From positions 62,001 through 126,000 of the IMG/VR virus record IMGVR_UViG_3300032224_000970: a stretch of DNA of 64,000 nt; one strand, given 5' to 3'. A model generated the notes under the pieces. It saw only the letters and a list, made by a program, of their open reading frames with translations. It was not told where the DNA came from and made no database searches. This DNA comes from a virus. Below are positions 24,427 to 64,000 of this stretch, in pieces (position 1 is the first letter of the stretch; every line of letters begins with the position of its first letter). Made by a program: the position numbers and the translations under genes.

Positions 24427-24936
24427 ATGGTCAGTAAATTTCTACCTGATGCTATGCTGCACCCACAATTCAAGGACTTCGAAAAGTTCTTTGTAGGGTT
24501 TGATGATCAATTCACACGTATGGCAAAGTTCCATGAGGATGTTACTAAGAACATTCCTAACTACCCACCATACAATATCAAGAAAAATGATGACAACCAT
24601 TACACCATTGAGATCGCTGTAGCTGGCTTTGGTCAGCAAGACATCGATATTGAAATGGCTGATGGTAAGTTAATCGTTCGTGGTAATGTGAAAACTGAAG
24701 AAGACCAAGACAACTTCTTGTTCAAAGGAATCGCAAATCGTGCCTTCACTCGTTCATTTGTTTTGAATGACGAAGTAGTAGTGAACGATGCTGAGATGCT
24801 CAACGGTATGTTGAAGATCTTCTTGGAACGTCTGATTCCAGAACACAAGCAACCAAAGAAAATCGCTATTAAATCCAAAGGTGAAAAACAACTATTAACC
24901 GAAGGAGAAAAAGATGCGATTGCTGAAACTTTGTAA
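24427..24936 (+). CDS. hsp20: Small heat-shock protein (Hsp20/IbpA family)
   Basis: This 169-residue alpha-crystallin-domain chaperone is common in T4-like cyanophages and relatives. PPYNIKKNDDNHYTIEIAVAGFGQQDIDIEM begins the domain, followed by GKLIVRGNV, FLFKGIANRAFTRSFVLNDEV and the C-terminal NGMLKIFLERLIPE. It likely holds unfolded phage or host proteins during infection. SD AAGGAG is 6 bases upstream. Confidence 0.9.
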   Translation: MVSKFLPDAMLHPQFKDFEKFFVGFDDQFTRMAKFHEDVTKNIPNYPPYNIKKNDDNHYTIEIAVAGFGQQDIDIEMADGKLIVRGNVKTEEDQDNFLFKGIANRAFTRSFVLNDEVVVNDAEMLNGMLKIFLERLIPEHKQPKKIAIKSKGEKQLLTEGEKDAIAETL

Positions 24937-30878: not shown

Positions 30879-33364
30879 TGCAATTTTATACTAACGTATT
30901 TCCCTTTGGCGATAAGATGTTCGTCAGAGGTTACGATAATGGGAGAGCATTCAATCGTAAGATTGACTTCTTCCCAACCCTTTATGTACCTTCCAAGAAA
31001 GACTCCGCATGGCGTACCTTGGAGGGTACAGTCATAGATGAGATTAAGCCAGGAACAGTTAAAGAGACACGTGAGTTTGTCAAACGATATGAAGGTGTTG
31101 ATGGTTTCGATATCTTCGGTAACACAAATTATGTGTGCCAGTATCTGAGCGATACATATGAAAGCGATATTCGTTTTGATATGGAACACATTCGTGTGTT
31201 CTCGATTGACATTGAGACTGCCACTGAAGATGGTTTCCCAGATATCAAAGCAGCGAATGAGGAAGTGCTTCTTATCACTATCAAAGACAGTCAATCAAAA
31301 CAGATCGTTACGTTTGGCTCACGTCCATTTGAAAACAAGCGTAGTGATGTAAAGTATATTCATTGCAAAGATGAACTACATCTACTGAAAGAGTTTGTCA
31401 TCTTCTGGCAACAGAACTATCCTGATGTTATCACAGGATGGAACACTGAATTCTTTGACATTCCTTATTTGGTTAAACGTATTGATCGAGAACTCGGTGA
31501 GTTGTTCTCAAAGAAACTTTCACCATGGGGATATATCAATGAGCGTAAGACCTTTATCAAAGGTAACGAAGAAATTCACTATGACATTCATGGTATCGCA
31601 CACCTAGACTATCTTGCTCTCTACAAAAAGTTTACCTACCAGAAGCAAGAATCTTATCGTTTGGATTATATCGCCAAAGAAGAACTTGGTGATGCAAAGA
31701 AACTAAATCCAGAAGATAACTTCAAAGATTTTTATACTAACTACTGGCAACAGTTTGTTGAGTATAACATTCATGACACTGAACTTGTTGATCGTCTTGA
31801 AGATAAGATGCGTCTGATCGAACTGTGTTTGACTATGGCGTATAATGCCAAGATTAACTATGAGGATGTGTTCAGTCAGGTACGTATGTGGGATGCGATT
31901 ATCTACAATCATCTACGCAAAAAGAAGATCGCCATTCCTGCAAAGTCTGGCTCTGGTAAAGACGCACAGTTTGAAGGTGCGTATGTTAAAGATCCTCTTG
32001 TTGGTTTACATAAGTGGGTTGCTTCCTTTGACTTGAACAGTCTGTATCCTCACCTGATCATGCAGTATAACATCAGTCCTGAAACATTGACACAGGAAAA
32101 GATTCCCTGCACAGTTGAGAAGTTACTTAACCAAGAAGTTGATACTGATTATGCTAAGCGTAGAGATCTATCACTGACTGCCAATGGCTGGTGTTATCGC
32201 AGAGATATCAAAGGGTTCATGCCTGAGTTGATGGAAAAGATGTATACCGACCGAAGCAAATTCAAGAAGCAGATGTTGAAAGCTGAACAGGAATATCAGA
32301 ACGATAAGACAAAGACTCAACTACTTAAAGAGATCTCTCGTTTAAACAATCTACAAATGGCAATGAAGATTGCGTTGAACTCTGCTTATGGTGCGATGGG
32401 TAATCAGTACTTCCGCTACTTCGATCTGCGTATGGCTGAAGGTATTACGACCAGTGGTCAGCTGAGTATTCGTTGGATGGCAAACAAGTTGAATGCTTTT
32501 CTTAATCGAACACTCAAGACAGAAGATAAAGACTACATCATTGCGATTGACACTGACTCAATCTACCTTACTCTTGAAACTCTTGTCGAGAAAACCTGCG
32601 AAGGTAAAACCGATGAGCAGAAGATTAAGTATATGGATAAAATATGTGAAGACATCTTCCAACCATTCATCGATAAAGGTTATCAAGAACTTGCTGACTA
32701 TATGAATGCCTACTCGCAGAAGATGCAAATGAAGCGAGAGGTGTTGGCTGATAAAGCAATCTGGACAGCCAAGAAGCGTTATGTGCTTAACGTGCATAAC
32801 TCTGAGGGTGTTCAGTATGCGAAACCAAAGATGAAAGTGATGGGTCTTGAGATGGTCAAGTCTTCAACACCTGCAGTCATTCGTGATAAGCTGAAAGATT
32901 CTTTGACAGTTATTCTTGAAGGTAAGCAATCAAACCTGCATACATATATTGCAAAGTTTCGTGAAGAGTTTAAACAACTGCCGATTGAAGAGATTGCTTT
33001 CCCACGTGGTGTGAATGGCATGCGACAGTATGCAGGTTCACCGATCTACGCAAAGGGTACACCGATCCATGTTCGTGGTTCTCTCTTGTATAATCACTAT
33101 GTGAAGCGCAAGGGTCTTGATAAGAAGTATCAACCGATTCGTGATGGTGATAAGATTCGTTTCGTATATGTACGTAGACCGAATCCTTTTGAGGAAGATG
33201 TGATTGCATTCCCACAAGAGTTGCCGAAAGAGTTTGGACTACATCAATACATAGATTATGACAAGCAGTTTGAAAAGACTTTCCTTGATGCCTTGCAGGG
33301 TGTTATCGATCCTCTTGGCTGGAAGGTAGAAGAACAATCATCGTTGGAGGACTTCTTTGGCTAA
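30878..33364 (+). CDS. 43: DNA polymerase gp43 (family B)
   Basis: The 828-residue replicative polymerase has a 3'-5' exonuclease domain (FSIDIETATEDGFP, WNTEFFDIPYLVKR, YNIHDTELVDRLE). Polymerase motifs are A (FDLNSLYPHLI), B (KIALNSAYGAMGN) and C (IDTDSIYLT), plus KKRYVLNVHNSEGV. It is slightly shorter than T4 gp43 (898). The C-terminus QSSLEDFFG is the clamp-binding tail and resembles the ends of gp55 and the TET/JBP protein here. Its 3' end carries the SD (GGAGG) for the next gene. Confidence 0.98.
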   Translation: MQFYTNVFPFGDKMFVRGYDNGRAFNRKIDFFPTLYVPSKKDSAWRTLEGTVIDEIKPGTVKETREFVKRYEGVDGFDIFGNTNYVCQYLSDTYESDIRFDMEHIRVFSIDIETATEDGFPDIKAANEEVLLITIKDSQSKQIVTFGSRPFENKRSDVKYIHCKDELHLLKEFVIFWQQNYPDVITGWNTEFFDIPYLVKRIDRELGELFSKKLSPWGYINERKTFIKGNEEIHYDIHGIAHLDYLALYKKFTYQKQESYRLDYIAKEELGDAKKLNPEDNFKDFYTNYWQQFVEYNIHDTELVDRLEDKMRLIELCLTMAYNAKINYEDVFSQVRMWDAIIYNHLRKKKIAIPAKSGSGKDAQFEGAYVKDPLVGLHKWVASFDLNSLYPHLIMQYNISPETLTQEKIPCTVEKLLNQEVDTDYAKRRDLSLTANGWCYRRDIKGFMPELMEKMYTDRSKFKKQMLKAEQEYQNDKTKTQLLKEISRLNNLQMAMKIALNSAYGAMGNQYFRYFDLRMAEGITTSGQLSIRWMANKLNAFLNRTLKTEDKDYIIAIDTDSIYLTLETLVEKTCEGKTDEQKIKYMDKICEDIFQPFIDKGYQELADYMNAYSQKMQMKREVLADKAIWTAKKRYVLNVHNSEGVQYAKPKMKVMGLEMVKSSTPAVIRDKLKDSLTVILEGKQSNLHTYIAKFREEFKQLPIEEIAFPRGVNGMRQYAGSPIYAKGTPIHVRGSLLYNHYVKRKGLDKKYQPIRDGDKIRFVYVRRPNPFEEDVIAFPQELPKEFGLHQYIDYDKQFEKTFLDALQGVIDPLGWKVEEQSSLEDFFG

Positions 33365-33908
33365 CATCAAAGTTATCAGAACTGGAATCAATGTCTCAAA
33401 GATATTGAAGCAGTTGGAACAACACCCAGAAGATTGGGGTGGACAGAAAAGCATTGAGGGAACTGCATCCTTACTTGACAAAGGTTACTTGGATGTTCCC
33501 ATCGGTGTATTGCAACTGATTATGGGTGGAGTTGAAACCGAAGATCAGTTTGTTGGAGACACAGAGATATGCATCGTTACACCTGCATATCGCAAACACA
33601 CAGAGATAGTTGGATTTATGAAGAGACATTTCCGTAGCCATAGTCGTTGCGGATTCTTGTCTCTTCCAGTTGGTGGCACAGTAGGACTACATATTGATGA
33701 GGGAACTTACTATCAAACAAAAGATAGGTATCATCTCTCAATACAAGGAACGTATAACTATTATTGCGGAGAAGAGATGGTTGTTGTAGAGCCAGGAACT
33801 TTGTTGTGGTTCAACAATAAATTACCGCATGGTACTGAGAATGTTGGAGATTGCACAAGAATTACTTTTGTATTTGATGTGCCACATTCAAAGTGGAACC
33901 CAAAATAA
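33357..33908 (+). CDS. 2OG-Fe(II) oxygenase (Asp/Asn hydroxylase-like)
   Basis: This 183-residue protein has a jelly-roll oxygenase signature: HIDEGTYYQTKDRYHLSIQG (Fe ligands His112 and Asp114), LPHGTEN (His158) and a 2-oxoglutarate-binding Arg168 (DCTRITFVFDV). Such genes are common in T4-like cyanophages. The only plausible start is TTG at 33357, 6 bases after GGAGG in the end of gene 43; no in-frame ATG occurs for 50 codons. The substrate may be a protein or nucleic acid. Confidence 0.8.
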   Translation: MANIKVIRTGINVSKILKQLEQHPEDWGGQKSIEGTASLLDKGYLDVPIGVLQLIMGGVETEDQFVGDTEICIVTPAYRKHTEIVGFMKRHFRSHSRCGFLSLPVGGTVGLHIDEGTYYQTKDRYHLSIQGTYNYYCGEEMVVVEPGTLLWFNNKLPHGTENVGDCTRITFVFDVPHSKWNPK

Positions 33909-35281: not shown

Positions 35282-35570
35282 TATCAAATACACTACTGTA
35301 AAGGGAAAGTTTAGCAACCTAGATGCAATTAAGTTGCTAGAGTATCCCTATGAGAATGTTATCTTCTCCTACGGTAAGGTGTCGTTCGAACCAGATGAAG
35401 CCAATGACAAATTGATTCTACAGTTTGAATATGATATCCATGACTACGCAGGAAAAGGTTTTGATGAGTCTATCTTTGAAAGCTACATTGGAGATCTTCT
35501 TAAGGAACTTATCCAAGAAGGTATCAAAGAAAATAATTTAACTTATACAGGTGGTGTTGATGAGGATTGA
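35274..35570 (+). CDS. Hypothetical protein between uvsX and 41
   Basis: A 98-residue acidic protein (MSDIKYTTVKGKFSNLDAIK, then QFEYDIHDYAGKGFDESIFE), alpha/beta, conserved in position in related phages as far as I know. No functional motif. Confidence 0.6.
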   Translation: MSDIKYTTVKGKFSNLDAIKLLEYPYENVIFSYGKVSFEPDEANDKLILQFEYDIHDYAGKGFDESIFESYIGDLLKELIQEGIKENNLTYTGGVDED

Positions 35571-36951
35571 ACAGGCGATATTGTCGAACCTGATTCACAA
35601 TGAGGAATACTGTCGAAAGGTGGTTCCTCATTTAAAGAAGGAATATTTCTTAGACCGCAAAGAGGCAACTATCGCCTCTTTGTTAATTTCGTTCTTTGAA
35701 AAGTACAACAAACCAGCCACACCTGAAGTGTTGGCTATTGAGGTTGGCAACATAAAGGGATTTACTGATAAAGAGATTCCCGAGATGCAAGAGATGATCA
35801 AGGAACTCACTCATTCTGAACCTAATCAGGATTGGTTGATTGAGCAAAGTGAAAAATTTTGTAAGGACAAGGCAGTCTATAATGCAATTCTTAAATCTAT
35901 CCAAATTATCGATGGTCGTGACAAAGTACATCAGCAGGATGCTATTCCTACCATACTTTCTGATGCACTTGGCGTTTGCTTTGATAATCATGTTGGTCAT
36001 GATTACATTCAAGATGCTAATGATCGCTTTGATTTTTATCACAGGGTGGAAGAGAAGATTAGTTTCGACCTTGAGATGTTCAACAAAATCACCAAAGGTG
36101 GACTCAGCAAGAAAACTTTGAACATTGCTTTGGCTGGCACAGGTGTTGGTAAGTCGTTGTTTATGTGTCACGTTGCTGCAGGTGTTTTGATGCAGGGCAA
36201 AAATGTTCTGTATATCACGATGGAGATGGCAGAGGAACGCATCGCTGAACGTATTGATGCGAACTTACTTAACCTTACAATGGATGAACTGAAGGTAGTT
36301 GACAAAGATATATTTGACTCACGTCTTGAGAAGATTGCGAAGAAAACACAGGGCACTCTTATCGTCAAAGAGTATCCGACTGCCAGTGCTCACGCAGGGC
36401 ACTTTCGTGCATTGCTTGAAGAACTTAAACTCAAGAAAGAGTTTGCACCAGATATCGTGATGATCGACTATCTGAATATCTGTGCGAGTCAGCGTTTGAA
36501 GATGGGTGCGAATGTAAATTCTTATACATATGTTAAGACGATTGCTGAAGAACTTCGTGGCTTGGCTGTTGAATATAATGTACCGATTGTGTCAGCTACT
36601 CAAACAACTCGTTCAGGATTTACCAACTCGGATCCAGGACTTGAGGATACTTCAGAATCGTTTGGTTTGCCAGCCACTGCCGACTTTATGTTTGCACTTG
36701 TAAGTAATGAAGAACTTGAACAACTGAATCAGATTATCGTTAAGCAGTTGAAGAATCGTTACAATGATCCAAACTACTACAAGAGGTTTGTCATTGGTAT
36801 TGATAGAGCAAAGATGAAGTTATATGATGTTGAAGTATCAGCACAAGAAGGACTATCAGATGCTGGTTCGAAAGATGATAAACCATTATTTGATAAAAGT
36901 GACTTTGGTAAACGAATACATAATGAAGGATTTAATGGTTTTAAGTTTTAA
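35560..36951 (+). CDS. 41: Replicative DNA helicase gp41 (DnaB family)
   Basis: The 463-residue protein (T4: 475) unwinds the fork and partners with primase gp61. It has an N-terminal helical domain, Walker A GTGVGKS at about residue 195, YITMEMAEERIAERID, Walker B DIVMIDYLNI, PIVSATQTTRSG and a C-terminal RFVIGIDRAKMKLYDVE. ATG 35560 overlaps the preceding gene end (GATGAGGATTGA); the ATG at 35551 lacks family support. Confidence 0.96.
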   Translation: MRIEQAILSNLIHNEEYCRKVVPHLKKEYFLDRKEATIASLLISFFEKYNKPATPEVLAIEVGNIKGFTDKEIPEMQEMIKELTHSEPNQDWLIEQSEKFCKDKAVYNAILKSIQIIDGRDKVHQQDAIPTILSDALGVCFDNHVGHDYIQDANDRFDFYHRVEEKISFDLEMFNKITKGGLSKKTLNIALAGTGVGKSLFMCHVAAGVLMQGKNVLYITMEMAEERIAERIDANLLNLTMDELKVVDKDIFDSRLEKIAKKTQGTLIVKEYPTASAHAGHFRALLEELKLKKEFAPDIVMIDYLNICASQRLKMGANVNSYTYVKTIAEELRGLAVEYNVPIVSATQTTRSGFTNSDPGLEDTSESFGLPATADFMFALVSNEELEQLNQIIVKQLKNRYNDPNYYKRFVIGIDRAKMKLYDVEVSAQEGLSDAGSKDDKPLFDKSDFGKRIHNEGFNGFKF

Positions 36952-36962
36952 GGAGAATAGAA

Positions 36963-38273
36963 ATGGTTAAAGTTATTGTTGCTGAAAAGAAATATGATTG
37001 CACACATATGTTGGGTCAGTTCCCAACAGAGAATGACTACGATTTTCTTATTGAAGAAGATTGCGATGTTTATATGCCAGCTAGTACTATGGGCGACTCA
37101 GACGATAATCTTGAGAATAGGATTGTTCTGAAGTTTCGTAAAAACTTTTTCAGCAAAGAACTTCAAGACGCAGCGTATGCTGGATTGAGAGATGCTGCAA
37201 CTGAATCTCAGAATCGTGGATTGGCAGCTGGACCACGTCAGGGAACTCTTGGTAATCGTGAATGGGTTACTGACTATGAGTATGAGGTCTTGGATCAGTT
37301 GTTGAAGCCAGCGCAAAATCTTTTCGGTGAAGATCCTATCGAAGAGATTCGCAAGAAACACAAAGAACGTAAGAGCACTGCATCTAATCGTGCACGTGTT
37401 TGGTCTATCGAACGTGTGAAGAAAGAGAACTTCAAGTTTGATGAGTGGGTTGACAGCCTAAAGAATTTACCTGAGGATGAAGTACGAGGTAAGGCTGAGT
37501 ATGTTGCTGAGAAGTTAATCTGTGCAACTACCTATGCGAACTCTGTTCATTCTGGTATCGCTGGTTGGTTCGATCGCTATCCACGTATCCCTTATGGTCG
37601 TGCGACTTCTTATACTCGTGATCACTTGGAGAAGTTTAAATTGTCATACCCATTCCTACAGTATCTATCAAAGGGATTTGAACAACTGCTGCCATGGCGA
37701 TATGAGAATCAAATGGCTGCTGCCAGAAAGATTGATCCAGGATATCTTGTTCCAGGAACTCCCTTCACAACTATCACTGTGAATAAATCTTTCCGCACTG
37801 CTTGTCACTTTGACGCAGGTGATTTGAATAGTGGCTTATCAAATTTATTGACACTTTCAAACAATGGTAACTACAAAGGTTGTTATCTTGTTGCACCTGA
37901 GTATCGTGTTGCAGTTAATCCACGTCCAGGAGATTTGCTTCTGATCAACAATCACGAAGTTATGCATGGCAACACTCAGATTGAATTGCTTGATGATGAA
38001 GCAGAGCGTATCTCTTTGGTATGTTACTTCCGTGAAAAGATGATGGAACTTGGTAGCAAAGAGTATGAAGATACTCGCTATCAGTTTGTTGAAGATCGTC
38101 GTCACAACAAAGAGCACCCTGAACAGCGTCCACTTTGGAATGGTGTTTCTGAAGGTATGTGGTTATCAGATGAATGGTATGAGTATCTGGAAAAGAAACT
38201 TGGTACCGAGCAGTTGCATAAGTACCACCCAGAATCAGTTAAGTCTGGTTCTCTTGATGAATTTTTTGCGTAA
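36963..38273 (+). CDS. TET/JBP-family 2OG-Fe(II) DNA base oxygenase
   Basis: The core of this 436-residue protein, FTTITVNKSFRTACHFDAGD with LSNLLTLSNNG, YRVAVNPRPGDLLLINNHEV and MHGN, matches the TET/JBP double-stranded beta-helix. Fe ligands would be His282, Asp284 and His335; Arg349 (ERISLVCYF) fits the 2-oxoglutarate contact. Known phage members oxidise the methyl group of 5mC or thymine in DNA. The N-terminal ~200 residues are family-specific. The C-terminus SGSLDEFFA is strikingly like the clamp-binding ends of gp43 and gp55. A glycosyltransferase gene follows. No C5-methyltransferase is in the window, so the substrate base is uncertain. SD AAGGAG is present. Confidence 0.8.
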   Translation: MVKVIVAEKKYDCTHMLGQFPTENDYDFLIEEDCDVYMPASTMGDSDDNLENRIVLKFRKNFFSKELQDAAYAGLRDAATESQNRGLAAGPRQGTLGNREWVTDYEYEVLDQLLKPAQNLFGEDPIEEIRKKHKERKSTASNRARVWSIERVKKENFKFDEWVDSLKNLPEDEVRGKAEYVAEKLICATTYANSVHSGIAGWFDRYPRIPYGRATSYTRDHLEKFKLSYPFLQYLSKGFEQLLPWRYENQMAAARKIDPGYLVPGTPFTTITVNKSFRTACHFDAGDLNSGLSNLLTLSNNGNYKGCYLVAPEYRVAVNPRPGDLLLINNHEVMHGNTQIELLDDEAERISLVCYFREKMMELGSKEYEDTRYQFVEDRRHNKEHPEQRPLWNGVSEGMWLSDEWYEYLEKKLGTEQLHKYHPESVKSGSLDEFFA

Positions 38274-38281
38274 GGGTTATT

Positions 38282-39289
38282 ATGTCTCTACATGAGTTTC
38301 TCGGTGAAGAAAGGTTACTAGAGTGGTTCTATTCAAGCAATTCTAGTAATACTGGAAAAACTATTGGTTATCGAAGAGTGTCTGGTAAGATTGGCTTAAC
38401 GAACAAAGAGAATGGTGTTCGTGGCGCATGGGTAGAGAAACGTGTTGCTCTATTCAAAAATCTTATGATTCTCAATGGGTATAGAATCATTCCACTTTCA
38501 GAAGCCACTGATGCAACAAAGGATGATGGGTTTGAAACATTCTCAGAGTATCAACCCTGTGATATCCTTATGCTTGAGTTTGGTGGAACTAACCTACAGT
38601 TCTATCAGAAGTATTGGGATAAGACTGTTGAAATGATTAAGGCACACAAAGGTCGCATCATCTTTTTGAATGATGACCCAGACCTACCTTTCCTGTGGGA
38701 ACTGTTGCCTGATGAAGATTGGTCACGTTGGACTATTGCTGCCAATGCAGTCAACTGCGATGAAGTTGCAAAGGTTCTAAAGTGTCCAGAAGGTTCACGC
38801 ACTGTTGACTTACCAATGGCTTCTGGTATGGAAGGTGAGAGCTTTCATGCTGGTGAGGTAGAAGCGATTGTCTATATCGGCAGACCTAATGGTCGCACGA
38901 AATACTTCAAGGAATTTACCAAGTCAAGAGAACTTAAGATTGCTGGTAAGGAAGCTGAGTGGGAAGATTATTCAGGACTAGAGATAATGGAAAATCCACA
39001 GCAAAGAGATCGTAGGAAATTCTATCAGAAGTTTGCTGGTTGTCTTGCTGTCTTTGACGACAAGCATAAGAACACTGGCTGGAGAACTGGTCGTGCCTAC
39101 CATGCTCTCTATGCTGGTATCCCTGTTTGTGCACCAAGAGGTAATGCTGGACTTGGCTGGTGTTTCCCTGTAGATACTGCAGCTGACATTTCAATGTTTG
39201 CAAAGTTGTCTGCCGAGAAGCGTCAGAAGATCTGGGAGAAGCAGGTAGAACTTGCTATTGATACCATTATCAATCCAATTACTCTATGA
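38282..39289 (+). CDS. GT-B glycosyltransferase, T4 BGT-like
   Basis: The layout of this 335-residue protein parallels T4 beta-glucosyltransferase. There is an N-terminal Rossmann half (CDILMLEFGGTNLQFYQK, GRIIFLNDDPDLPFLWELL), then the donor-binding half (EAIVYIGRPNGRTKYFKEFT, FAGCLAVFDDKHKNTGWRTG, RAYHALYAGIPVCAPRGN). It lies directly after the TET/JBP gene. It would therefore glycosylate the hydroxymethyl group made there. The N-terminal MSLHEFLGEE also resembles clamp-binding peptides; T4 alpha-glucosyltransferase is known to bind gp45. Donor sugar unknown. Confidence 0.68.
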   Translation: MSLHEFLGEERLLEWFYSSNSSNTGKTIGYRRVSGKIGLTNKENGVRGAWVEKRVALFKNLMILNGYRIIPLSEATDATKDDGFETFSEYQPCDILMLEFGGTNLQFYQKYWDKTVEMIKAHKGRIIFLNDDPDLPFLWELLPDEDWSRWTIAANAVNCDEVAKVLKCPEGSRTVDLPMASGMEGESFHAGEVEAIVYIGRPNGRTKYFKEFTKSRELKIAGKEAEWEDYSGLEIMENPQQRDRRKFYQKFAGCLAVFDDKHKNTGWRTGRAYHALYAGIPVCAPRGNAGLGWCFPVDTAADISMFAKLSAEKRQKIWEKQVELAIDTIINPITL

Positions 39290-39735
39290 AAGTATCCTAC
39301 GATATCGATGGAGTACTGGCTGCTCAGCCACCTGCCAATGACAAGAAGTGGGGTCATATGGATGGGGCTGAGCGCAGAGCCAGAAAGGAATTCCTCTATG
39401 ACTGGTATGCCAATGCCGAGAAGTTGATCGAGCCAGTGGAGCAGGAATTCTACGCTATTTCTGCAAGAAAACGAGAGCCAAGGATTCATACAATTACAAA
39501 TGACTGGTTGAATAAATACTATAGTAAGAGAGTCTTGGCATTCTATTTACTTGGAACTTCTAGAACAGTTGAGAACGTCGTCCGATTCAAGTCTGAAACA
39601 GTCCTTGAGTTGGGCGTCCAACGACATTATGAAGATAACAAGAAGGTTTTGAGAGGGATGCGAAAAATACTTCCTCCCGAAGTTGAGTTGTATTTTTGGG
39701 AAAGGGGAATGGACCAACCAATACCGTTTAAGTAA
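39286..39735 (+). CDS. HAD-superfamily hydrolase
   Basis: This 149-residue protein has HAD motifs: I SYDIDGVLA (nucleophile and acid/base Asp), II YAISARK, a Lys in VVRFKSETV, and IV HYEDNKKVL. It is a small capless phosphatase, perhaps acting on nucleotides or DNA ends, or on a sugar phosphate for the modification pathway. It overlaps the glycosyltransferase gene by ATGA, which hints at a link. The insert after motif I is unusual. Confidence 0.72.
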   Translation: MKVSYDIDGVLAAQPPANDKKWGHMDGAERRARKEFLYDWYANAEKLIEPVEQEFYAISARKREPRIHTITNDWLNKYYSKRVLAFYLLGTSRTVENVVRFKSETVLELGVQRHYEDNKKVLRGMRKILPPEVELYFWERGMDQPIPFK

Positions 39736-39744
39736 GGACTAATA

Positions 39745-40443
39745 ATGAAATACATACAGAGTCTTAACTTTGATTGGATAGAAATCCTCAACTTTTATGA
39801 ACGACCATTCAGAGCCAAATTCATCCCAGCCAAAATCTGGGGTGAATTAGACAATTACAAAAACGATCCACAGGGACTTAGCAACTACGTTAAGAAGTGG
39901 CGTACTAAGATAGTTTGGAAGAAAGAACTTTCCAAAGCAAAGACCTATCAAAACTATATCGCTATCGGTGGCGAGTATGATCCCGAGAAAAGACAGTCGA
40001 CTCTTTTCATGTGCACCGACAATTACAAACACTTTCAATTTACCCAAGATTCATGGGATAAGTTTAAGTACCGCATCATCCAAACTCTAATGCATGAGAT
40101 TATTCACTGCTCTCAGTTTATGAAGAGAGGTGATGAGTGGAGTAACTATGTTCTTCCTTACAAGAAAGTTGGTAAGGTGAAGATTGATAGAGAGCGTCGC
40201 TACTACTCAGAGTTTGATGAGATTCAAGCATATGCTCACTGCGTATACCTAGACCTTAAAGTCGGCAAGCCAACCATCGAAGTCCCAATCCTATTGAATC
40301 GTTGCAAGAAATATAGAGACTCTAAGACTCTACACTTCTTCCTTAAAGCATTCGACTACGACTTCAAAAACAACTTTGCACCAAAGAAAATTCTACAACA
40401 TGTAGCCAAGTGGGATCGCAAATATAATAGATACGTAGCCTAA
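39745..40443 (+). CDS. Putative zinc metalloprotease-like protein
   Basis: This 232-residue protein carries TLMHEIIHCSQFMKRG, an HExxH zincin motif at about residue 115. SEFDEIQAYAHCVY is a candidate third ligand about 40 residues later. The C-terminus is basic. Such proteins recur in aquatic T4-like phages, but I know of no demonstrated substrate. It is translated after the HAD gene (9-base gap). Confidence 0.6.
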   Translation: MKYIQSLNFDWIEILNFYERPFRAKFIPAKIWGELDNYKNDPQGLSNYVKKWRTKIVWKKELSKAKTYQNYIAIGGEYDPEKRQSTLFMCTDNYKHFQFTQDSWDKFKYRIIQTLMHEIIHCSQFMKRGDEWSNYVLPYKKVGKVKIDRERRYYSEFDEIQAYAHCVYLDLKVGKPTIEVPILLNRCKKYRDSKTLHFFLKAFDYDFKNNFAPKKILQHVAKWDRKYNRYVA

Positions 40444-48173: not shown

Positions 48174-48620
48174 ATGAATGAATTAGTAGCAGCAATGAGA
48201 ATCGTACTGGCGAATAATTTCGTCATGTACTTCAGAGCGCATTCCTACCACTGGAACGTAGAAGGTATTGAGTTTAGCCAATATCATGACTTCTTTGGAG
48301 ATCTATACAACGAACTTTTTGGTGCTGCAGATACAATAGCAGAAGAGATTCGTGCCCTAGATTCTTATGCTCCAATTAGCCTTATGGAAATGTATAACTA
48401 TAAGACTATCGAAGAGGATAGTACCAGAACTGTCCTAATCGCTGATATGTTGACCAAACTACAAGATTCTAACAATAAAGTTCTCGAAAGCCTAAATAAA
48501 GCATATGAGTTAGCAAATTCCGCAAAGGAATTGGGTCTCGCAAACTTTCTCCAGGATAGAATGGATAAACATAAGAAACATGGTTGGATGATTCGTGCCA
48601 GCCTAAAGAAGGTTGGATAA
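48174..48620 (+). CDS. Dps-like ferritin
   Basis: This 148-residue four-helix protein has YFRAHSYHWNVEGIEFSQYH and DFFGDLYNELFGAADTIAEE, the Dps/ferritin-like ferroxidase pattern with His, Asp and Glu ligands. Dps proteins bind DNA and detoxify iron and peroxide. Homologues occur in aquatic T4-like phages. Placement inside the internal-protein cluster suggests it may be packaged or needed late. SD AGAGGG is 7 bases upstream. Confidence 0.75.
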   Translation: MNELVAAMRIVLANNFVMYFRAHSYHWNVEGIEFSQYHDFFGDLYNELFGAADTIAEEIRALDSYAPISLMEMYNYKTIEEDSTRTVLIADMLTKLQDSNNKVLESLNKAYELANSAKELGLANFLQDRMDKHKKHGWMIRASLKKVG

Positions 48621-54591: not shown

Positions 54592-55608
54592 ATGTTATAC
54601 ATTGATGCGAAGTATGCAAACATCTTGGGTAGTCGCCTAAGAAACTTCAAACAAAAGAATGATTATGTTTGGAACTATTCATGTCCAGTTTGCGGAGATA
54701 GTTCTAAGAACAAATTGAAAGCACGTGGATATATCTACCGTAAGAAGTCAGATCTATTCGTGAAGTGTCACAATTGTCAGTATGGCAGCAACATTGGCAA
54801 TCTTATTAAGCATGTTGATCCCGTCCTTTATAATGAGTATGTCTTGGAGCGTTATAAATCTGGCGCAACAAGATACAATGACCATAAAGACGTAGCAGAA
54901 ATTCTCCCCAAAGAAACCGAACTACTAGAGGATGATATTCTCAGTGGTTTGAAACGACTTGATCGTATGGATGAATCACACCCAGCAGTTAAGTATGTGA
55001 TTGACAGAAAGATACCGAAGGATAAGTGGTATCTTTTGTATTTTTCACCGAAGTTTAAAGCATTTACGAATACTGTCAATCCAAAGTTTCAAGAACCGAT
55101 CGAGGGTGACCATCCTCGTATGATCATTCCATACTTCACAGCTGCAGGTAAGTGTTTTGCTTTTGCTGCTCGAGCATATGGAAACGAAGAGCCTAAGTAT
55201 TACACAATCAAGGTAGATGAGACACAGGAGAAAATTTATGGTATGGATAGATTGGACTTTTCTAGAAGAATTTATGTGGTGGAAGGACCCATTGACTCGC
55301 TATGCATTCCAAATGCAATTGCTGTGTCAGGAGCAAGTTTTGATACCCCTACTATTCGCCAGTTGCTTACTAACGCAACGATTGTAATGGACAATGAACC
55401 TCGCAATAAAGACATAGTAAAACAACTTGCTAAGTATATCGATTTAGGGTATAATGTATTCTTATATCCAGATAATGTCAAAGAAAAAGATTTGAACGAG
55501 ATGATCCTATCTGGAACTACTCCGAACGAAATTTTAGAAATGATAAATACAAATACCTTCACAGGTATCGAAGCCAAATTGAAATTTAGTACATGGAGAA
55601 AAACGTGA
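54592..55608 (+). CDS. 61: DNA primase gp61
   Basis: The 338-residue primase (T4: 342) makes RNA primers with helicase gp41. An N-terminal zinc site CPVCGDSS and CHNCQYG flank a KARGYIYRKK strand region. The TOPRIM core has YVVEGPIDSLCIPNAIAVSG and IVMDNEPRNKD. ATG 54592 follows a GAGAG SD; a GTG at 54580 is less likely. It overlaps thyX by GTGA, and an internal promoter for thyX lies at 55427. Confidence 0.95.
   Translation: MLYIDAKYANILGSRLRNFKQKNDYVWNYSCPVCGDSSKNKLKARGYIYRKKSDLFVKCHNCQYGSNIGNLIKHVDPVLYNEYVLERYKSGATRYNDHKDVAEILPKETELLEDDILSGLKRLDRMDESHPAVKYVIDRKIPKDKWYLLYFSPKFKAFTNTVNPKFQEPIEGDHPRMIIPYFTAAGKCFAFAARAYGNEEPKYYTIKVDETQEKIYGMDRLDFSRRIYVVEGPIDSLCIPNAIAVSGASFDTPTIRQLLTNATIVMDNEPRNKDIVKQLAKYIDLGYNVFLYPDNVKEKDLNEMILSGTTPNEILEMINTNTFTGIEAKLKFSTWRKT
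55427..55455 (+). promoter_or_regulatory. Putative internal promoter for thyX-nrdAB
   Basis: TTGCTA, 17 bases, TATAAT with TAGGGTATAAT context, inside gene 61 about 150 bases before thyX. The spacing agrees with the other promoters; the position in coding sequence makes it less certain. Confidence 0.5.
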
Positions 55609-56279
55609 AAGTACAGTTAATAAGTTACAGCCAACCCGATACCTACTTCGTGGAGAACACCACAGAATTGATTGCGTTCTGTGCAAGAGTATCAAATCCC
55701 AGCAATCAAAATAACACAGATACATCAGAGAAGTTAATTCGCTATCTAATTAAAAACAAACACTGGTCACCACTAGAGATGGTTTCTATGTGTTTAGAGA
55801 TAGTAACTACTCGAGATATCGCAAGGCAGATCTTGCGCCATCGTTCTTTTTCATTTCAAGAGTTTAGTCAGCGTTATGCTGACCCAACCAAGGAACTAGA
55901 TTTTGTACTACGAGAAGCAAGATTACAAGACACAAAAAACAGACAGAATAGCGTAGAGTTAGACTACAGCAATGACGACCATCGTCGTCTAGCAGCACAG
56001 TGGGAAGTTTTACAAAATGAAATTATCCGACGTGCAAAAGAAGCATACTCATGGGCTATTGACAAGGGCATCGCCAAAGAACAAGCAAGAGCAGTATTAC
56101 CAGAGGGATTGACTGAAAGTCGTATATACATGAATGGTACGTTGCGTAGCTGGATTCATTTCATTGAACTCCGATCTGCAAATGGTACTCAAAAGGAACA
56201 TCAGTTAGTAGCACTAGAATGTGCAAAGGTTATTGCCACAGTATTCCCAATGGCAACTGAATTAGTAAATAAAGAATAA
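55605..56279 (+). CDS. thyX: Flavin-dependent thymidylate synthase ThyX
   Basis: This 224-residue enzyme makes dTMP from dUMP using FAD, NADPH and methylene-tetrahydrofolate. The signature RHRSFSFQEFSQRY matches RHRxxSxxxxSxRY. Other conserved blocks are HWSPLEMVSMCLEI, ARAVLPEGL and SWIHFIELRSANGTQKE. Best start is GTG 55605, six bases after GGAG and overlapping the gene 61 stop; ATG 55593 would lie before the SD. It forms a nucleotide operon with nrdAB. Confidence 0.95.
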   Translation: MKVQLISYSQPDTYFVENTTELIAFCARVSNPSNQNNTDTSEKLIRYLIKNKHWSPLEMVSMCLEIVTTRDIARQILRHRSFSFQEFSQRYADPTKELDFVLREARLQDTKNRQNSVELDYSNDDHRRLAAQWEVLQNEIIRRAKEAYSWAIDKGIAKEQARAVLPEGLTESRIYMNGTLRSWIHFIELRSANGTQKEHQLVALECAKVIATVFPMATELVNKE

Positions 56280-61860: not shown

Positions 61861-64000
61861 TGCGTTTCGCATTGGCATTTTTTCTAATGATAGTTTTGGC
61901 AGTGTTGCTGCCAAAGGCACGTGCACAATCCACCGTATCTAACAACATTTTAACTCCAACAGTCCCAGCATGGTCTGGTTCTGTCGCAGGACAAAATGGT
62001 GGTTACTCTGGTGGTGGTAATGGACCAGCATTTAATTCTACAACAAATACTTTAATCTTTGGATATACTAATGCAACTGCAACACAAAATATATCTGCCC
62101 AAGCATTTGCTATTCAACATGCACTAGATCTAGCAAACTCTGGTATTAAAATTCAGGGATATAACTACTCATGGCAGATTAATAACTCTGGTCAACAGTC
62201 AGGAACACTTACTGGTAAAGTTGATCTTCTTAGATCAGGTAGTGTGCTAGAGTCTTATACTTACAACTATAATGCACCAACAAATGGGTTTGAGTTAAAG
62301 ACTGGTACACAGAATTTTACGAATGAATATGATATGCTCTCTACAGATGCAATCAGATTATCATTTACTGGTAAGGATAGTAGATTCTGGTCAGGTTATT
62401 ATGGACCACAGGTTAGACAGCCATCTCTAACACTTAACTATACAACAGACCCATGTGCTGCTAATCCATTATATTCACCAAGTTGTCCAAACTACAATAA
62501 AGTACTGACTAGTCAAAACCTACTTGGGAATGAATATGGTATACAAAGTTATGCTATCAATCAAGCACTAGCATTATCTGGTTCAGGTGTGCAGATTAAT
62601 GGTTTCAAGTATGGTTATGACTTGTATGTTGGTGGTGATTGGTGTTATTTTGGATTTATAATTTGTTTTGATTGGAGACAATCTTCAATGGCAGTAGATG
62701 TTAATGTTACATCAGCTGCAGGAACAAATCTGTATACTGCAACACATGATCATACTCAACAAAATACATTCGGTAGTTACAGCTACAGTTATGTGTTCCC
62801 AACAAAACAACCATTGACATCGATGGGCAACTTCTCATTGTCTTCAAGACAATTTGGAACAGGTGCATTATACAGTAGCTGGAGTAACTGGCAGTATACA
62901 CCTGACCCATGCGTAGTAGATCCACTGTCATCTGCAACATGTCCAGGTTACGCAGTTGCTTATAAAACACAACAGTGTGCTGCCAATCCTTTATATGCAG
63001 CTGATTGTCCAGGATATGCTGCTGCTATGTTTACACAGCAATGTACTGCTAATGTTTTGTCAGACCCGACATGTCCAGGATATGCATCTGCTTATTTAAA
63101 CTATCAGTGCTCTATCAACCCTCTCTATTCAACAACTTGTGCTGGATATGAAACTGCATATTTCAGTCAGCAGTGCTCTATCAATCCTTTATACAACAGT
63201 AGATGTGATGGTTATGCAGTCGCTTACAAAGCACAACAGTGTTCACTAAATGCTCTTTATGCTACTGACTGTCCAGGATATGCTACAGCCTATAAATCTC
63301 AACAGTGTTCACTAAATGCTCTTTATGCTACTGACTGTCCAGGATATGCAGCTGCTTATAAAACACAGCAGTGTAATTCAGATGGATTATATGCAAGAGA
63401 CTGCCCAAACTATGCTGAAGCATATGCTAAGAAAAATGTTCTAAACATATCTTCAACAGGAACTACTACCACAACTACTGCACCGAAAACTACAACTACA
63501 GTTTCAACTACAGAACCAACACCAACAGTTTCGAGTAGTGGTAAGGTTACAACTGATGTTGCGATTGTAAGTGATAGTAATGTAAACACAGTTATCACTA
63601 GTAAGTCAACAAGTACTGATGCAGCTGCAACTTCTGCACCTGTTAACGTAACTAAACAAGAATCACCACAACAATCTCAACAAACACAACCAACAACTAC
63701 AGCATCTGCCCCACAGGACAAGAAAGCTGAGGAGAAAAAAGATGATGCTCCGAAAGGCACTGGAGGCAGTTCTTCGCCACAAAATACTGGTAATGCTACA
63801 GCGTCATCTGATACAAAGAACGAACCAAAAACTGCAAGACAAGAAATAGCAGAGAAGAGACAGGAAGCTGCCAGAGCAAAGGCAGTTGAGACTGGAAAGA
63901 ATCTCGCTAATGAAATGGGTAAAGCATCAAACATGGATCAACAGATTGCTGTTCAGAATGTAGTTATACAAGCAATGGGTTTCACTCCAGGATTTGATGC
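61860..64000 (+). CDS. Large secreted Cys-repeat protein (partial, runs off window)
   Basis: The frame is open from ATG 61860 to the window end (713 codons). A signal peptide (FALAFFLMIVLAVLLPKARA) leads into two beta-rich domains of similar plan (about 30-200 and 215-345), the second flanked by Cys. Eight tandem 22-residue repeats then lie at 62910-63437, with consensus CxxNxLYxxxCPGYAxAYxx. A Thr/Ser/Gln-rich stalk and a charged helical segment follow. Each repeat has two Cys that could form disulfides in the periplasm. Probably exported or envelope-associated. Confidence 0.75.
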   Translation, partial: MRFALAFFLMIVLAVLLPKARAQSTVSNNILTPTVPAWSGSVAGQNGGYSGGGNGPAFNSTTNTLIFGYTNATATQNISAQAFAIQHALDLANSGIKIQGYNYSWQINNSGQQSGTLTGKVDLLRSGSVLESYTYNYNAPTNGFELKTGTQNFTNEYDMLSTDAIRLSFTGKDSRFWSGYYGPQVRQPSLTLNYTTDPCAANPLYSPSCPNYNKVLTSQNLLGNEYGIQSYAINQALALSGSGVQINGFKYGYDLYVGGDWCYFGFIICFDWRQSSMAVDVNVTSAAGTNLYTATHDHTQQNTFGSYSYSYVFPTKQPLTSMGNFSLSSRQFGTGALYSSWSNWQYTPDPCVVDPLSSATCPGYAVAYKTQQCAANPLYAADCPGYAAAMFTQQCTANVLSDPTCPGYASAYLNYQCSINPLYSTTCAGYETAYFSQQCSINPLYNSRCDGYAVAYKAQQCSLNALYATDCPGYATAYKSQQCSLNALYATDCPGYAAAYKTQQCNSDGLYARDCPNYAEAYAKKNVLNISSTGTTTTTTAPKTTTTVSTTEPTPTVSSSGKVTTDVAIVSDSNVNTVITSKSTSTDAAATSAPVNVTKQESPQQSQQTQPTTTASAPQDKKAEEKKDDAPKGTGGSSSPQNTGNATASSDTKNEPKTARQEIAEKRQEAARAKAVETGKNLANEMGKASNMDQQIAVQNVVIQAMGFTPGFD
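62910..63437 (+). repeat. Eight tandem 66-bp repeats coding for Cys modules
   Basis: The period is 66 bases (22 codons). Units 6 and 7 share an exact 50-base stretch (63234-63283 and 63300-63349), pointing to recent duplication, while earlier units have diverged. An isolated related unit lies at about 62457. Confidence 0.9.

Follow-up and report, generated by a model that had tools for sequence, protein, structure and literature searches.

A TET/JBP oxygenase, a BGT-like glycosyltransferase and a HAD-fold protein as a predicted base J-like thymine-glycosylation module of T4-like phages

Hypermodification of cytosine by phage TET enzymes and glycosyltransferases (GTs) is already known (work cited in PMC12730594), and phage thymidine hypermodification, which involves an amino acid:DNA transferase (ADDT) and a 5-hydroxymethyldeoxyuridine (5hmdU) kinase, has 5hmdU as its shared intermediate (PMC6449724). 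In kinetoplastids, base J is made by the thymine hydroxylases JBP1 and JBP2 together with JGT, and functions in transcription termination. We know of no report of base J in viruses of bacteria. Here, three adjacent genes were investigated in a window of 64,000 nt (the whole stretch of DNA analysed, positions 62,001–126,000 of the 159,683-bp IMG/VR virus record IMGVR_UViG_3300032224_000970), for which an earlier note, made from the letters alone, had proposed a DNA hypermodification module. The genes, all on the + strand, encode a TET/JBP-family Fe(II)/2-oxoglutarate dioxygenase (open reading frame ORF1, window positions 36963..38273, 436 aa), a BGT-like GT-B glycosyltransferase (ORF2, 38282..39289, 335 aa) and a small HAD-fold phosphatase-like protein (ORF3, 39286..39735, 149 aa). 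The triad is predicted, with good probability, to be a post-replicative thymine-glycosylation module for phage DNA with a base J-like product. This prediction builds on the enzyme classes, established by sequence and structure, on the operon and its conservation, on the exchange of gene cassettes and on the absence of a C5-methyltransferase.

The triad and its three proteins

ORF1 and ORF2 are separated by 8 nt, and ORF2 and ORF3 overlap by ATGA, with the start of the HAD gene on the stop of the GT gene. The triad lies directly downstream of a gene for a gp41/DnaB-like replicative helicase (35551..36951, + strand; PHROG 19, 6.7e-127), a conserved neighbour upstream of TET, and this adjacency puts the module within the replication operon. 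Both TET and HAD were found within four genes of the GT in 29 of the 32 distinct GTs that were flanked on both sides, including in unrelated contexts, which bears out the idea of a module; chance association is excluded, because the triad recurs at most distinct GT loci. The triad was kept without gp41 alongside at four loci (L155, L157, L160 and L164), and at four others (L159, L162, L167 and L175) the order was reversed to GT–HAD–TET, and the TET there was short and belonged to another subfamily. The exceptions were L173 (GT–TET without HAD), L177 (GT alone) and L183 (GT–HAD without TET).

Additional genes were seen at some loci. A ParB-N domain gene immediately precedes GT–TET in L173 (3423-5763), where terminase genes adjoin, and in L200 (7465-9805), and its product possibly targets the modification. 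Between GT and HAD, three loci (L081:6519-7634, L084 and L092) have what looks by its sequence to be a SulP-type sulfate permease gene, and there is a second small 2-oxoglutarate (2OG)-Fe(II) oxygenase-like gene between TET and the downstream cassette at four (L029:7184-7777, L046, L054 and L021). The window has a 2OG/cupin-type ORF of its own (33357-33908), which differs from the latter gene.

ORF1 matched the Pfam family Tet_JBP (PF12851) with 94.9 bits (cut-off 34.9, E 3.9e-27) over residues 213–358, corresponding to profile positions 18–164, and PHROG 24024, a family of unknown function, at 1.1e-158. In an alignment of 18 diverse TET homologues (31–79 % identical to the window protein), H282, D284 and H335, the HxD...H Fe(II) ligands, were invariant, as was R349, expected to be the 2-oxoglutarate arginine. 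A profile built from ORF1 homologues matched human TET2 structures at 4e-7 with the ligands in register. The iron-ligand pattern and TET/JBP-like core read from the letters by the earlier note were confirmed in this way, and the profile search that it had suggested placed the protein well above the curated cut-off. The residue five past the first histidine, Asn in TET2, was Asp, Asn or Ser among the ORF1 homologues. Homologues in phages DLP6 (L110), Cr30 (L111), S-CBWM1 (L113) and Pelagibacter phage HTVC112P carry the database label 'SNF2 DNA repair protein', apparently an annotation error passed on from record to record; the label was rejected for the first three, whose proteins align with the Tet_JBP protein.

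Sequence searches of ORF2 against Pfam, PHROG and PDB gave no family match, with noise or nothing from PDB. The AlphaFold2 model, built from an alignment of 27 sequences, was nevertheless confident and two-domain (pLDDT 90.7, pTM 0.87), and its best solved match was T4 BGT (1j39, with UDP-glucose, E 5.8e-9; 1bgt, TM 0.67, root-mean-square deviation 4.3). GT113-type enzymes came next, and the GT of phage HY126, T4 AGT (1y8z, E 1.8e-5) and OtsA were also matched. The 'BGT-like layout' reported earlier was therefore correct, T4 BGT being the top PDB match in the very structural comparison that had been recommended. In three MAFFT modes, BGT residues D100, G188, R191, R195 and R269 aligned on D132, G200, R201, R205 and R271 of ORF2, all invariant across the 27 sequences, although this pairing comes from sequence alignment at 13–14 % identity and is fragile at such identity; H274 and K53 stand in place of BGT E272 and E22. 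In BGT, D100 is the catalytic base, and the arginines are phosphate-binding residues that bind the donor. None of 18 GT members matched PF09198, the T4 BGT family, and hhalign gave the GT and T4 BGT a probability of 0.8 %, at the low power of an alignment with Neff about 2.4. Because profile homology was undetectable, the protein is classed as a BGT-like enzyme outside the BGT sequence family.

GT homologues were found at 79 IMG/VR loci and in none of 50,697 phage records. Among 84,980 cellular species a single contig carried one, in the arrangement ParB-like gene–GT–TET; a cellular origin was rejected, this sole contig sharing the arrangement of phage locus L173. Judged by these searches, the family is phage-specific within the databases covered. 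The gene after TET in phage C48C1 was rejected as a GT homologue (hhalign 0.2 %, with the same low power). A second GT, of family 2 and GT-A type, is encoded outside the window (L205:4594-5304; G000 129594-130304), adjoining genes for a calcineurin-like phosphoesterase and a BPL_N-type protein; a further sugar step or a surface function is possible for it.

ORF3 likewise had no family match in Pfam or PHROG, and noise or nothing in PDB sequence searches. All of the HAD motifs were found in it, namely motif I (DxD, D6 and D8), motif II (S59), motif III (K102) and motif IV (E116–D117). D8, S59, K102, E116 and D117 were invariant in 30 HAD homologues and D6 nearly so, and the AlphaFold2 model had a HAD fold (pLDDT 96.8). 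The nearest solved fold was the 3'-phosphatase domain of T4 polynucleotide kinase (2ia5), a modest match (E 9e-4, TM 0.57), with Pnkp1 lower. In the neighbourhood tables HAD accompanies GT and was not seen in ADDT-type loci; it is a conserved third member of the module, linked to GT rather than TET, and no incidental neighbour. The overlapping HAD gene of the earlier note, put forward there as an unusual third member, has held on both counts, by its invariant catalytic set and modelled fold and by its presence at most distinct GT loci. A HAD protein beside the TET of S-CBWM1, annotated 'capsule biosynthesis phosphatase', was rejected as a homologue (hhalign 1 %, low power, Neff about 2.4).

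The exchangeable slot and the modified base

The order uvsX–(98 aa)–gp41–TET was almost constant among T4-like loci, whereas the genes after TET varied. Three types of cassette occupied this slot: GT–HAD; a set comprising glutamine amidotransferase, amidoligase-like, GNAT, ADDT (PF18724, 2e-23) and P-loop kinase (PF18751) genes; and the TET-associated glycosyltransferase TAGT (PF20691, 4.8e-19), the last at L035, L037 and L039–L041. A tree of 103 TET sequences required at least seven cassette changes, and the count was the same with nodes of <0.7 support collapsed. Different cassettes stood behind TETs sharing 79.5 % (window versus L002) to 85 % (L050 versus L052) identity. Since such closely related TETs serve both GT and ADDT cassettes, they should give the same base, 5-hydroxymethyluracil (5hmU). 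Across 18 genomes or records, GT was present in nine and ADDT in six, never both, and the P-loop kinase was confined to ADDT genomes, counts that shared ancestry makes less independent. The cultured Caulobacter phage Cr30 carries TET and ADDT, the latter deposited as a 'hypothetical protein' (L111:18027-19256, 1.3e-52) near TET, with a myo-inositol-1-phosphate synthase gene next to it. No ADDT, Ploopntkinase3 or thymidylate-synthase-type gene was found in the record under study, and the idea that another part of it conceals a kinase or a dUMP hydroxymethylase was rejected on these searches. An SprT-like metallopeptidase-type ORF (39745..40443, + strand; weak match, 0.015) bounds the slot downstream and occurs after GT-, ADDT- and TAGT-type cassettes alike; it is a boundary gene, for which no part in the pathway is proposed.

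Two loci point to a different source of 5hmU. In L183 (5995-9334) and L184, GT–HAD is followed by HMUDK_hel (PF18723, 9e-26), of 5hmdU-kinase type, and then by a thymidylate-synthase-like gene, and no TET was found in the 47.7-kb L183 contig. The thymidylate-synthase-like product is 36–41 % identical to the dUMP hydroxymethylases of YuA and Bordetella, which are among its closest annotated relatives, and retains their GAN motif with its Asn, the position that decides between dUMP and dCMP specificity (PMC8670742). Because GT–HAD adjoins this gene where TET is missing, TET can apparently give way to a dUMP-hydroxymethylase-like enzyme as the source of 5hmU, a non-orthologous replacement of the oxidase. 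The HMUDK_hel protein of L183 had no homologue in our own record by phmmer.

A search of 29 genomes or contigs, comprising the 159,683-bp record and 28 others, with controls positive in 10 of 14, yielded no C5-methyltransferase (PF00145); several of them were of 140–168 kb and four were phage genomes, from isolates or deposits, listed as complete, while some were fragmentary contigs, for which the absence is weaker. The lack of such an enzyme, noted earlier for the window, therefore extends to the whole record, the remainder of which had been named as the place to look. Two explanations had been offered for it: that the oxygenase acts on thymine, which has gained support, and that a methylase lies elsewhere, none being found in the rest of the record. 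A flavin-dependent thymidylate synthase, ThyX, is encoded in the window (55593..56279, + strand; PF02511, 1.1e-45) and in nine of 14 relatives, and Cr30 has ThyA, so that dTMP synthases are common among these phages. ThyX probably supplies dTMP, and hence ordinary thymine for replication, and may less likely be a 5hmdUMP synthase. Taken together, the missing C5-methyltransferase, the exchange of GT–HAD for ADDT–kinase cassettes, the mutual exclusion of GT and ADDT and the replacement of TET in L183 and L184 favour thymine over 5-methylcytosine (5mC) as the probable substrate.

Proposed pathway and rival explanations

In the pathway proposed here, replication would use ordinary dTTP, made via the phage's own ThyX, and the TET/JBP enzyme would then convert thymine within the DNA to 5hmU by hydroxylating its 5-methyl group, as JBP1 and JBP2 do. 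The BGT-like enzyme would add a sugar, probably glucose from UDP-glucose, to the hydroxyl group, yielding a base J-like nucleotide, and the glycosylated 5hmU would protect the DNA from nucleases and from glycosylases that remove 5hmU; base J is no substrate of AlkA, Mug, hSMUG1 or TDG (PMC6449724). The HAD protein would serve the glycosylation step as a phosphatase, most likely by stripping a phosphate tied to the sugar-transfer product or to the modified DNA, a role that we regard as possible rather than probable. The oxidation-plus-sugar pathway of the earlier note finds support as a module, its family guesses for TET and GT included. Several points nonetheless weigh against the pathway as drawn. 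Phage TETs characterised to date all act on 5mC (Burke 2021, as cited in PMC12730594), the TET sequence by itself does not tell thymine from 5mC specificity, and 5mC might come from a host methylase; ThyX could itself make 5hmdUMP, a function put forward for one Thy1 protein of SP-15 (PMC5977210); the likeness of the modelled GT to BGT appears to be structural only; and L173 and L200 have GT–TET without HAD.

One rival explanation is a cytosine route, in which a host or unrecognised methylase makes 5mC, TET converts it to 5-hydroxymethylcytosine (5hmC) and the GT glycosylates it, as in the systems of Burke et al. 2021. Characterised phage TETs work in this way and T4 BGT itself glucosylates 5hmC, but with no C5-methyltransferase in the 29 genomes or contigs, a module conserved across hosts that is unlikely to rely on a host mark, and swaps with ADDT/kinase cassettes and a dUMP-hydroxymethylase-like gene that indicate 5hmU, this route is improbable. 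Oxidation could instead occur on nucleotides, the oxygenase acting on dTMP or dTTP (or ThyX making 5hmdUMP) before the modified dNTP is incorporated, with HAD as a dNMP phosphatase shaping the pool. Phages with dUMP hydroxymethylases do act before replication, a 5'-deoxynucleotidase can adjoin the synthase, the SP-15 proposal would be a precedent, and the record encodes ThyX, dCMP deaminase and ribonucleotide reductase. DNA, however, is the substrate both of characterised Tet_JBP enzymes and of ADDT-type partners, and HAD, whose closest fold match is a nucleic-acid phosphatase domain, tracks GT rather than TET; a nucleotide-level route is very improbable.

That DNA is not modified at all, the oxygenase hydroxylating a protein or small molecule and the GT decorating a surface or protein target, is hardly to be expected: the GT-B fold is generic, and GT113-type protein glycosyltransferases and OtsA are among the structural matches, but the Tet_JBP score is far above its curated cut-off, the best structural match of the GT is a DNA glucosyltransferase, and the module sits beside gp41 in the replication operon, where it is exchanged with ADDT and TAGT. 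A further alternative concerns the third gene only, and would make HAD a healer of DNA ends that clears 3'-phosphates after excision by host glycosylase and apurinic/apyrimidinic lyase and so allows repair of phage DNA, with EndoVIII and Brig-type defences as excisers of 5hmU or glycosylated thymine. The 3'-phosphatase domain of T4 polynucleotide kinase/phosphatase is the nearest solved fold, Pnkp1 also matches, hSMUG1 with EndoVIII cleaves 5hmU-bearing phage DNA (PMC6449724) and modified thymine is a target of Brig2-type glycosylases (PMC13216743). The fold match is modest, however, and HAD tracks GT and was unseen in ADDT-type loci, where 5hmU would need repair just as much; end healing is therefore unlikely, though worth weighing.

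If the thymine-glycosylation pathway is correct, it would add a route to 5hmU, by oxidation of thymine already within DNA, a DNA glycosyltransferase family that neither Pfam nor PHROGs contains, and an almost invariable third component, a phosphatase. The loci would also form a natural experiment in which sugar and amino-acid decorations are interchangeable behind a single oxidase. The identity of the substrate is open to direct test in culture, since Cr30 (with TET and ADDT) and DLP6 are cultured and share this TET subfamily, and the enzymes may find use as tools for mapping or labelling thymine and 5hmU. Elsewhere in the window, a ferritin-like protein (48174-48620, 3.4e-23) and Hsp20 (24427-24936, 2.9e-18) are encoded.

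Comparison with known systems

Hypermodification based on 5hmdU is already known. A thymine pathway that is driven by TET and decorated by an undescribed GT family, with HAD as a companion, appears to be new, although parts of the gene context may have prior mention in the 2013 base-modification survey (Iyer et al.). SP-15 likewise has a glycosylated thymine derivative in its DNA, but its base is dihydroxypentyluracil, made before replication with a teichuronic-type gene cluster and no reported TET (PMC5977210). Phages that combine TET, a C5-methyltransferase and a GT (Burke et al. 2021; Mycobacterium phage Cooper gp2 type) also couple Tet_JBP with glycosyltransferases, whereas no methyltransferase came to light in the 29 genomes or contigs studied here, the associated cassettes are of the 5hmdU pathway and the GT family is another. 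In the thymidine hypermodification of M6/YuA, ViI and phiW-14 (dUMP hydroxymethylase, 5hmdU DNA kinase and ADDT) 5hmU is the common intermediate, and ADDT, kinase and GNAT genes fill the same slot in sister phages; here, 5hmU would arise through TET on DNA rather than through dUMP hydroxymethylase, and, in phages of the window type, would receive a sugar rather than an amine or amino acid.

TAGT occupies the same slot behind TET but belongs to the GT-A fold superfamily (PMC13216743) and has no HAD partner at its loci. T4 BGT shares with ORF2 the GT-B fold and invariant counterparts of D100, R191, R195 and R269; it differs in the two replaced glutamates and in the low identity and lack of a profile match, and its partner is dCMP hydroxymethylase, not TET. 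The gene content of the module is compatible with the kinetoplastid pathway, with which it has in common a TET/JBP oxygenase coupled to a glycosyltransferase and a proposed product, β-glucosyl-5hmU. The phage version is an operon with no J-binding domain seen, a BGT-like GT-B enzyme and an extra HAD, and its function is presumably protection. It may be, and here the chance falls only a little short of even, that widespread T4-like phages make base J or a close analogue by means of a JBP-like hydroxylase, a new BGT-like GT family and a near-obligate phosphatase, with the sugar or amino-acid cassette freely swapped behind an almost unchanging thymine oxidase, and that the base J pathway of kinetoplastids has in this module a counterpart among viruses of bacteria, possibly even its ancestor.

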